Positions 8,369 to 12,539 of a stretch of DNA of 12,539 nt are shown here, piece by piece. Both the position numbers and the translations under genes were made by a program. The DNA is taken from assembly GCA_002394525.1 (NCBI GenBank), contig DGUF01000236.1, positions 1-12,539 on the forward strand, given 5' to 3'. Each line of letters opens with the position of its first letter. Within the stretch, counting starts at the first letter, position 1. The stretch comes from Lachnospiraceae bacterium UBA4317. Its GTDB lineage: Bacteria > Bacillota_A > Clostridia > Lachnospirales > Lachnospiraceae. Under the pieces are notes generated by a model. It did no database searches. It had not been told where the DNA came from and worked only from the letters and a program-made list of their open reading frames with translations.

Positions 8369-9127
8369 ATGGTCAAAATAGCAGTTTACGGAAAGGGCGG
8401 CATCGGCAAATCAACGGTCACGAGCCACCTGGCGGCGGCCTTTGCAAGACTGGGCAAACGGGTCATCCAGATCGGGTGCGACCCCAAGGCGGATTCCACG
8501 ATCAACCTGCTGGGCGGCAGGGCCCTGAGGCCTGTCATGAATTACCTGCGGGAAGAGGACCGGGATCCCGAGACGATCGAGGAGATCTCCAAAGTCGGCT
8601 TCGGCGGGATCCTCTGCATCGAGACGGGAGGCCCGACCCCGGGCCTTGGCTGCGCCGGCCGCGGCATCATCGCGACCTTCCAGCTGCTGGAGGACCTGCG
8701 GCTCTTCGAGACCTGGAAGCCGGATGTCGTCCTCTACGATGTCCTGGGGGATGTCGTGTGCGGAGGCTTCGCGGCCCCCATCCGCGAGGGATACGCGGAA
8801 CAGGTCCTGATCGTCACCTCGGGGGAAAAAATGGCCCTCTATGCCGCCAACAATATAGCCAGCGCGGTCGAAAATTTCGAGGACAGGAGCTATGCCAGGA
8901 TCCGGGGGATCATCCTCAACCACCGCAATGTCGTCGGCGAGGATGAAAAGGTCCGGGCCTTTGCGGATTCCCGGGGCCTGAGGATCGTCGGGGAGGTCCC
9001 CAGGAGCGACGACATCACCCGCTGTGAGGACCGGGGCATGACGACTGTCGAGGCGGACCCCGGACTGCCCGTCAGCAGGACCTTCCTGGACCTGGCCGCG
9101 AGGCTCCTGGAGAAGGAAGAGGACTGA
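8369..9127 (+). CDS. NifH-like ATPase (nitrogenase iron-protein family)
   Basis: This 252-residue cytoplasmic protein belongs to the NifH/BchL/CfbC family, homodimeric ATPases that pass electrons from a [4Fe-4S] cluster to a partner reductase. The P-loop GKGGIGKST is at residues 8-16, followed by GCDPKADST at 36-44. The two cluster ligands of NifH (Cys97 and Cys132 in A. vinelandii) correspond to Cys95 in GLGCAGRG and Cys131 in DVVCGGFAAPIR; Asp124 and Asp128 fit switch residues. The Arg target of regulatory ADP-ribosylation in NifH is kept (Arg98). It is shorter than true NifH at the C-terminus, as in many nitrogenase-like homologues. AGGAG lies 8 bases before the ATG. The fused component-1-like gene follows 101 bases on, so this is its likely electron donor. 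No nifB, nifE or nifN is visible, arguing against nitrogen fixation. Confidence 0.92.
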   Translation: MVKIAVYGKGGIGKSTVTSHLAAAFARLGKRVIQIGCDPKADSTINLLGGRALRPVMNYLREEDRDPETIEEISKVGFGGILCIETGGPTPGLGCAGRGIIATFQLLEDLRLFETWKPDVVLYDVLGDVVCGGFAAPIREGYAEQVLIVTSGEKMALYAANNIASAVENFEDRSYARIRGIILNHRNVVGEDEKVRAFADSRGLRIVGEVPRSDDITRCEDRGMTTVEADPGLPVSRTFLDLAARLLEKEED

Positions 9128-9148
9128 ATCCCCTTTGTGAGAAAACGG

Positions 9149-9211
9149 CCGGAGAGGATCTCCGGAATCTGATCCCTGTGAAAAGAGATGAGCGGTTCCG
9201 GGAGAGGAACC
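9149..9211 (+). other. Two hairpins between the NifH-like and fused genes
   Basis: CCGGAGA-gga-TCTCCGG at 9149-9165 is a perfect 7-bp stem, and GGTTCC-gggaga-GGAACC at 9194-9211 a perfect 6-bp stem. Neither has a T-run, so they are not intrinsic terminators. They may stabilise or process the shared mRNA so that the NifH-like protein is made in excess of its partner. The fused gene's binding site AAGAGG follows at 9216-9221. Confidence 0.55.
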
Positions 9212-11919: not shown

Positions 11920-11986
11920 GGAACCCTGGATCTGCGGATTCTGCGTTTTTTGTCAGTCGACGCAGCAAAGAAAGGTTTTTCCGGAT

Positions 11987-12539
11987 ATGGATACATTCGC
12001 AACCGTGCGTTTTCGTGTATACGGGATCGTCCAGGGGGTCGGATTCCGGCCCACCGTCGACCGGCATGCCTCGGCATCCGGGATCCGGGGCAGCGTCTGC
12101 AACAAGGGGCCCTATGTCGAGATCGTGGCCCAGGGTGAGCAAGGGCAGATCGAAGCCTTTGAGCGCCTGCTCAGGGACCAGCCCCCGCGCAGGTCCTCCA
12201 TCCTCAGGATCGACAAAAAGGAATTGGAAGAAGCCCCGGCCTATGACGCTTTTTCCATCATAGAGAGCGAAAAGACCAGGGGGGAGATCTTCATCTCTCC
12301 TGACATTGCGATCTGCGAGGACTGCATCAGGGAGATGTACGACCCGGCGGACAAAAGATACCTCCATCCTTTTATCAACTGCACCTGCTGCGGCCCGAGG
12401 CTGACCATCCTGGACGCCCTGCCCTACGACCGGGAGCGGACCAGCATGAAGATGTTTCCCATGTGCCGGTCCTGTGCCGAGGAGTATTACAGTCCCCTGT
12501 CCAGGCGCTACGACGCCCAGCCGGTCTGCTGCAATGACT
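11987..12539 (+). CDS. hypF: HypF carbamoyltransferase, N-terminal part (cut by window end)
   Basis: The first 184 codons of HypF are present and the frame runs off the window edge. HypF converts carbamoyl phosphate to a carbamoyl adenylate and loads it onto HypE, which makes the cyanide ligands of the [NiFe]-hydrogenase iron. Residues ~7-95 are an acylphosphatase domain with VYGIVQGVGFRP (11-22) and its catalytic Arg21. Two HypF zinc fingers follow: Cys110-x2-Cys113-x18-Cys132-x2-Cys135, and Cys160-x2-Cys163-x18-Cys182, whose last Cys would fall in the codon cut by the edge. The usual RRxHAQP reads RRYDAQP here. The YrdC-like and kinase-like domains would lie beyond the window. The ATG is preceded by AAAGAAAGG (11967-11975). 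It begins 67 bases after the fused gene, with no clear terminator, so co-transcription is likely. Confidence 0.93.
   Translation, partial: MDTFATVRFRVYGIVQGVGFRPTVDRHASASGIRGSVCNKGPYVEIVAQGEQGQIEAFERLLRDQPPRRSSILRIDKKELEEAPAYDAFSIIESEKTRGEIFISPDIAICEDCIREMYDPADKRYLHPFINCTCCGPRLTILDALPYDRERTSMKMFPMCRSCAEEYYSPLSRRYDAQPVCCND

Follow-up and report, generated by a model that had tools for sequence, protein, structure and literature searches.

Genes of the Locus

The stretch of DNA considered here (12,539 nucleotides of contig DGUF01000236.1, from Lachnospiraceae bacterium UBA4317; hereafter the window) ends inside an operon in which genes for nitrogenase-like proteins (nfl) are followed by hyp genes, and the subject of the present work is the relation of this operon to the maturation of [FeFe] hydrogenases. 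Only three genes of the operon lie in the window, all on the + strand: nflH1 (8369..9127), encoding a NifH-like iron protein of 252 residues (Pfam Fer4_NifH, 1e-85); nflD1K1 (9229..11919), encoding a fused nitrogenase component-1-like protein of 896 residues; and the 5' part of hypF (11987..12539), 184 codons comprising acylphosphatase and zinc-finger domains and left open by the end of the window. The gaps between them measure 101 and 67 bases, and this three-gene row, described in an initial annotation made from the sequence alone, is borne out by open reading frames (ORFs), Pfam and NCBIfam. The same annotation saw no clear terminators, a statement to be qualified by a weak terminator-like hairpin (5 pairs, then TTTTTT) at 11933-11945, between nflD1K1 and hypF; terminator-like sites in 7900-12539 number 5, against 3.2 +/- 1.7 in shuffled sequence. 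The promoter scan gave no signal above chance.

The iron protein retains, as had been noted, its P-loop (GKGGIGKS, residues 8-15; 8390..8413) and both cysteine motifs of the family, with Cys95 in GCAGRG (8651..8653) and Cys131 in DVLGDVVCGG (8759..8761); these two cysteines are predicted ligands of a bridging [4Fe-4S] cluster, a role which we take over from NifH. The hypF fragment matches the NCBIfam hypF model at 3.7e-58 over the N-terminal positions 2-174 of 741, and Pfam Acylphosphatase and zf-HYPF at 3.7e-20 and 4.4e-22; a full-length relative (locus L034) scores 739.7 bits against a cut-off of 466.

Relationship to the Nitrogenase Superfamily

The nitrogenase superfamily includes, besides nitrogenase, the ATP-driven reductases DPOR (BchLNB), CfbCD and MarHDK. 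Its defining features (Pfam PF00142 and PF00148), namely, a P-loop ATPase with two cluster cysteines and a component-1 domain in both halves of the partner, are all found in the window proteins: Oxidored_nitro is matched by nflD1K1 in three stretches (1.9e-46), and in Pseudoramibacter alactolyticus by each of D1, K1, D2 and K2, while one divergent D2 (L002) gave no match to this domain. That nflD1K1 is a "double-length" partner also holds, since D and K are separate genes in other loci and both halves resemble component-1 chains in fold matches, the best Foldseek match being a fused NifEN; throughout the 120 best homologues listed, its length ranges from 771 to 1060 residues. The nflH1 product is accordingly predicted to be the ATP-dependent electron donor to nflD1K1.

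Despite this likeness to NifEN and NifDK, no component-1 or iron protein of the window exceeds any NCBIfam Nif cut-off, and the neighbouring genes are of the hyp and hyd type. The iron protein scores 302 bits on the nifH model (cut-off 394), 290 on CfbC (402), 204 on BchL (345) and 196 on BchX (331), and so stays below the cut-offs of these four characterised clades; nflD1K1 reaches at most 31 bits on the BchN and BchB models and 25 on CfbD (cut-off 268), all below the respective cut-offs. DPOR and CfbCD thus appear as same-fold matches whose cut-offs are not reached, and MarHDK (9fmg, 9d9u) appears only as a same-fold match. On these scores, roles in N2 fixation and in chlorophyll or F430 synthesis were rejected.

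The component-1 protein had been credited with an altered cysteine set, and this description can be made more precise. Across 44 homologues five cysteines do not vary. In the D half, the pair Cys75-Cys76 (SPGCCGRNT; 9451..9456) occupies, in a low-identity alignment, the position of NifD Cys88, and Cys139 (TCVDALLGTD; 9643..9645) that of NifD Cys154; the K half contributes Cys579 and Cys584 (GGCTGNIC; 10963..10980), candidate ligands across the D/K interface. In the same alignment no equivalent of NifD Cys62 was seen in nflD1K1, nor any equivalent of the FeMo-cofactor ligands Cys275 and His442 in D1, K1, D2 and K2. In a tree of the iron proteins, nflH1 belongs to a 37-member clade of H1 sequences (support 0.85); with H1 and H2 told apart by their start motif, and with three NifH, one BchL and one Treponema sequence (no CfbC or MarH) as references, this tree shows only that the H1 and H2 groups are each monophyletic and lie outside the three NifH.

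The Operon in Related Genomes

Scanning the genome collection with a sequence pattern gave 49 matching stretches. A relative is encoded in 39 of these, which together with the window make up 40 loci, from Lachnospiraceae, Coriobacteriaceae/Atopobiaceae, Eubacteriaceae and other Clostridia. Among the named carriers are Sarcina sp. DSM 11001, Lachnospiraceae bacterium MA2020 and Pseudoramibacter alactolyticus, and many carriers are rumen and gut bacteria. The nearest full-length relatives of the DK protein share 65-71% identity with it, and one short piece shares 77%.

By motif, nflD1K1 is followed by hypF in 36 of the 36 loci with downstream DNA, the window included (the other four loci end first); since the arrangement recurs in all of them, and in two phyla, it is not due to chance. 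The initial annotation had connected the nitrogenase-like genes with HypF from proximity; the connection now extends well beyond adjacency, as hypC, hypD and hypE follow hypF and many loci add a gene for TM1266, a second nfl set, hydF and hydE. The conserved order, found whole or in part, is nflH1-nflD1K1-hypF-hypC-hypD-hypE-TM1266-nflH2-nflD2-nflK2-hydF-hydE, with nflD1 and nflK1 either fused or separate; it is complete in the isolate Pseudoramibacter alactolyticus (L030), and L029 and L037 are among the loci with divergent hydF and hydE in which no nflH2 was seen. Judged from these relatives, the rest of the operon would be expected beyond the end of the window also in UBA4317. Among the 40 loci, ORF clusters gave hypF in 33, hypD in 28, hypE in 22, hypC in 19, hydF in 17, and hydE and TM1266 in 14 each; some genes were masked by antisense ORFs, and not all loci extend equally far. 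Of the 32 loci in which both members of the pair were called, 14 have a 4-base overlap between the DK or K gene and hypF, which supports co-transcription in those 14.

One tested copy each of hypF, hypC, hypD, hypE, TM1266, hydF and hydE passes its NCBIfam cut-off, and the diagnostic motifs of the Hyp proteins are kept: MCVG in 19/19 HypC, SGPGCPVC in 28/28 and EVCGTHTHE in 27/28 HypD, and the C-terminal cysteine in 21 of 22 HypE, the remaining copy being cut by the locus end. With these motifs kept, the cyanide and iron-binding machinery looks intact. The operon differs from the HypABCDEF system, to which HypC, HypD, HypE and HypF are thus alike, in that its hyp genes are encoded with hydE, hydF and nitrogenase-like genes.

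Several loci depart from the common plan. In six of them nflH2 and nflD2 are fused into a gene for 727-732 residues (L007, L008, L011, L016 and L020, at about 17600-19900; L009, at 12061-14247), and in Sarcina sp. DSM 11001 (L090, 11280-17786) a molybdopterin protein, presumably of the formate-dehydrogenase type, and two flavoprotein partners stand between hypE and nflH2; the label "hydA", attached by BLAST to an ORF of the L090 operon, was rejected, Pfam identifying a molybdopterin protein. No match was found in E. coli genomes, and the relatives of D1 that turned up on plasmids were all distant, with Treponema and NifE showing the best coverage.

Hydrogenases and Maturases of the Operon Genomes

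In the profile search, HydG exceeded its cut-off in none of 75 operon genomes (0/35, 0/11 and 0/29 in three sets) and in one of 14 control genomes, presumably Thermotoga maritima. A hidden HydG was sought among the six strongest matches below the cut-off (162-185 bits, in six genomes) and rejected: none of the six carries the C-terminal CxxC-x20-24-C motif, and the three that were scanned are ThiH. HydE exceeds its cut-off in 72/75 operon genomes, and HydF in 46/48 from two families (12/12 and 34/36). An [FeFe] hydrogenase is present in 35/35 operon genomes, and the three H-cluster loops were found in all 12 of the hydrogenases fetched, with the variants TSCSPGW in seven and IPC for MPC in four. 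The resemblance to the HydEFG system lies in HydE, HydF and TM1266, which pass their cut-offs, and in the hydrogenases themselves; the difference is that, instead of HydG, these genomes hold HypCDEF and two nitrogenase-like systems.

A [NiFe] large subunit is matched in only 8/35 operon genomes (in all eight with both CxxC motifs, on which rests the label Ech that we presume for them; two of the eight, when scanned, scored best against NuoD-type models, below the cut-offs). HypA is over its cut-off in 19/35 genomes and missing in 16/35, and the isolates G003 (Sarcina sp. DSM 11001), G021 and G029 have neither HypA nor a [NiFe] large subunit match. Of the role first suggested for the nitrogenase-like genes, in nickel/iron cofactor or hydrogenase biology, the hydrogenase part is thus supported (with hydE and hydF in many of the loci), and the nickel part is not supported, beside [FeFe] hydrogenases in every genome of the set.

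Mutual Exclusion and Exchange of nflD1 and HydG

The absence of HydG was followed in two families: that of G003, with a sample of 200 genomes (presumably Lachnospiraceae), and that of G028, with 121 genomes (presumably Atopobiaceae, of another phylum). Among the presumed Lachnospiraceae, the D1 profile gave 34 matches at E 0.001 or better, of which the 12 over 600 bits (all at 657 or more) were counted as D1 and the remaining 22, at 236 bits or less, were not; on this count D1 occurs in 12 genomes, HydG in 100, and both in none. HydF is present in 118 genomes, including all 12 with D1, and these 118 divide into 12 with D1 only, 96 with HydG only, none with both and 10 with neither. Among the presumed Atopobiaceae (D1 called over 500 bits; all such matches reach at least 518, and the only other one scores 70), D1 occurs in 36 genomes, HydG in 13, and again both in none; HydF accompanies D1 in 34/36 and HydG in 13/13, so that the 53 HydF genomes comprise 34 with D1, 13 with HydG and six with neither. 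In the latter family HypD is found in 35/121 genomes: 34 of the 36 with D1, and G287, which carries a gene of the D2 type. All 13 HydG genomes lack it, so that in this sample HypD occurs only with nfl genes.

A single-gene tree of 70 HydF proteins (FastTree; 34 from nfl-hyp genomes, 33 from HydG genomes and three from genomes with neither) shows the two kinds of tips intermixed, with at least 10 state changes, or 8 and 6 when nodes under 0.9 and under 0.95 are collapsed; 200 shuffles of the labels require 17-29 changes. Similar HydF proteins thus go with HydG or with the nfl-hyp module according to lineage, and this speaks for a functional interchangeability of HydG and the module.

A Proposed HydG-Independent Route to the H-Cluster

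By the known route, CO and cyanide arise from tyrosine, which HydG cleaves, and the same enzyme builds an [Fe(CO)2(CN)(Cys)] unit, which HydE dimerises and HydF loads into the [FeFe] hydrogenase. The content of the operon, the retention of HydE, HydF and [FeFe] hydrogenases where HydG is absent, the exclusion of D1 and HydG in two phyla, their repeated exchange and the intact Hyp motifs lead us to consider it likely that the window contains the head of an H-cluster maturation operon which replaces HydG, HypCDEF and the ATP-driven nitrogenase-like reductases supplying the Fe-CO-CN unit. The replacement is argued from comparative genomics; that the module feeds HydE and HydF, like every chemical step assigned to the nitrogenase-like proteins, is inferred. 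HypF and HypE would provide cyanide from carbamoyl phosphate, and HypC-HypD, as they do for [NiFe] enzymes, would bind the iron and assemble a unit of the Fe(CN)2CO type; the H1/D1K1 and H2/D2K2 pairs, using ATP and low-potential electrons, might either supply CO, for example, by reduction of CO2, a reaction that nitrogenase proteins perform, or act as NifEN-like scaffolds reworking the iron unit into a CO-rich form for HydE and HydF. As a guess from gene order, H1/D1K1, encoded beside hypF, could work with the Hyp proteins, and H2/D2K2, encoded beside hydF, could hand over to HydE and HydF.

The literature offers some points of contact. PMC9431212 and PMC11736057 treat HydG as supplying both the CO and the cyanide for [FeFe] hydrogenases, and the latter of the two has HydG passing an Fe(CO)2(CN) unit to HydE; the former states that HypCDEF makes Fe(CN)2CO in [NiFe] maturation, and that in vitro HydE and HydF without HydG give about 1% activation, a figure that free CO or cyanide doubles, which means that the pair can accept ligands from elsewhere. 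The same source reports on eight Clostridium acetogens, half of which (C. ljungdahlii, C. coskatii, C. ragsdalei and C. sp. AWRP) possess HydE and HydF but no HydG that conforms to known motifs, and possess HypCDEF but neither HypA nor HypB; the hypF-C-D-E genes of C. ljungdahlii are CLJU_RS11345-11360. For the missing hydG the authors of this source see no straightforward explanation (PMC9431212). The operon may bear on this puzzle, as a lead and not as a test, and the lead is weakened by the putative atypical HydG genes named there, as well as by the treatment of HypCDEF as [NiFe] maturation proteins (PMC9431212). In the literature searched, outside which lay most subscription papers and bioRxiv, no description of a link between nitrogenase-like proteins, Hyp and HydEF was found. 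As a non-homologous replacement of HydG joining the cofactor worlds of nitrogenase, [NiFe] and [FeFe] hydrogenases, the nfl-hyp operon would open a new path to an organometallic centre in biology and a new job for nitrogenase-like proteins, and it might help to explain the origin of the CO of HypCD under anaerobic conditions.

Weighing the Alternatives

A number of observations weigh against the replacement of HydG by the operon. The pattern of D1 and HydG is correlative and concerns genes only; Fisher tests on the HydF genomes (p 8e-11 for the 118 and 3e-8 for the 53) treat related genomes of the same family as independent, and their values overstate that independence. The exclusion is limited to strong D1 matches, since lower-scoring nitrogenase-like relatives, at 174 bits or less, are present in 13 of the presumed Lachnospiraceae genomes with HydG (100 in all). 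HydF without either HydG or D1 is found in 10/118 and 6/53 genomes, so that other solutions, or missing contigs, exist; three of these 16 contain HydG fragments under the cut-off (G082, 262 bits; G238 and G309, 169-175 bits) and were counted as negative. Three of the 75 operon genomes are without HydE and two of the 36 D1 genomes of the presumed Atopobiaceae without HydF; as the majority of the 39 loci stem from metagenome-assembled genomes, single absences are uncertain. In G226 hydF lies 1.1 Mb from D1 on the same contig, and in G106, G126, G159, G171, G194, G202 and G218 on another contig. The HydF tree counts exchanges relative to HydF and not to species, and HydF may itself have moved between species. 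The Hyp proteins may also serve nickel enzymes in the genomes with HypA (19/35) or a [NiFe] subunit (8/35). Finally, HypCDEF gives an iron with two cyanides and one CO, HydE takes one with two CO and one cyanide, and a conversion must therefore be assumed.

These reservations invite other readings. The nitrogenase-like proteins might themselves contain a new cofactor of the Fe-CO-CN kind, assembled by HypCDEF, for some other reduction, the loss of HydG being unrelated and hydE and hydF mere neighbours; the frequent lack of HypA or of a [NiFe] large subunit would suit a non-hydrogenase target, the operon holds two nitrogenase-like sets, and the NifD-type cofactor ligands are unseen, so that a different cofactor would be needed. 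We judge this unlikely, because it leaves unexplained the exclusion of HydG in two families, the retention of HydE, HydF and hydrogenases without it, the presence of TM1266, hydF and hydE in the operon, and the several replacements of one state by the other on the HydF tree. Maturation of a [NiFe] hydrogenase (e.g., Ech), the nitrogenase-like proteins giving its CO ligand, could call on the large subunits with both CxxC motifs in eight genomes and on HypA in 19, and yet is very improbable: the other 27 of the 35, including the isolates G003, G021 and G029, which also lack HypA, have no [NiFe] large subunit match, G029 being nearly whole in one 2.33-Mb scaffold, and the operon contains hydE and hydF.

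Two further accounts carry still less weight. A nitrogenase-like reductase of the ordinary kind, with a tetrapyrrole or C-S compound as its substrate and beside hyp genes only by chance, would agree with the component-1 fold, the intact iron protein and the NflHDK set of Treponema saccharophilum, which has an ABC importer and no hyp genes; it is disfavoured, and we give it hardly any credence, given a neighbourhood kept in 36/36 loci of two phyla, an iron protein below the NifH, CfbC, BchL and BchX cut-offs, and a HypD that tracks D1 among the presumed Atopobiaceae. Equally implausible is that HydG was simply lost and the hydrogenases are inactive or poorly matured by HydE and HydF with stray CO and cyanide: the roughly 1% activation in vitro (PMC9431212) speaks for it, and against it stand the [FeFe] hydrogenase genes kept in 35/35 genomes, with three loops in 12/12 of those fetched, the retention of HydE and HydF, and the same multi-gene module present each time, which loss alone does not explain.

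Importer-Containing Relatives

The HydF genomes with neither HydG nor D1 are also relevant to the proposed replacement of HydG. Stretches around hydF were fetched for nine of the ten in the presumed Lachnospiraceae (not G082) and for four of the six in the presumed Atopobiaceae (not G238 and G309). In G152 (L075, G152:C1:84000-103000) and G169 (L080, G169:C1:274000-292000), TM1266, nflHDK and a FecCD/Peripla_BP_2/ABC importer are encoded beside hydF, the nfl proteins sharing 36-64% identity with H2, D2 and K2; hydE is also present in G152. A similar nflHDK/importer set lies on another contig in G083, and G287 has its D2-type gene. In G046, G149, G157, G163, G177, G216, G301, G330 and G341, only HydE, TM1266 or HydF were seen among the reference proteins around hydF, the contig of G046 ending just after this gene.

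On plasmid pTS1 of the spirochaete Treponema saccharophilum (L070, 18001-24297), nflHDK is likewise accompanied by an iron-type ABC importer; the proteins share 56% (H), 31% (D) and 38% (K) identity with those of the operon, from which this set differs in having no annotated hyp or hyd gene within 18 kb. Together with G152 and G169, it suggests an import-based route, that is, a possible, unproven variant of H-cluster maturation predicted from gene content. The broader picture, in which the nitrogenase fold makes or remodels an Fe-CO-CN unit for the H-cluster with the cyanide machinery of [NiFe] maturation, and a sister version (G152, G169) with a FecCD/BtuCD-type importer may scavenge an external metal complex, is put forward tentatively, as an idea to which we lean rather less than halfway.

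Other Features of the Window

Upstream of the operon, positions 3362-8020 encode a Bmp-like protein, a metallophosphoesterase and a 537-residue protein with an Indigoidine_A-like C-terminal half; in several loci, relatives of the former two likewise precede the operon. PADLOC gave one match, at 0.0008, and a gene for tRNA-Trp(cca) lies at 2533-2604.

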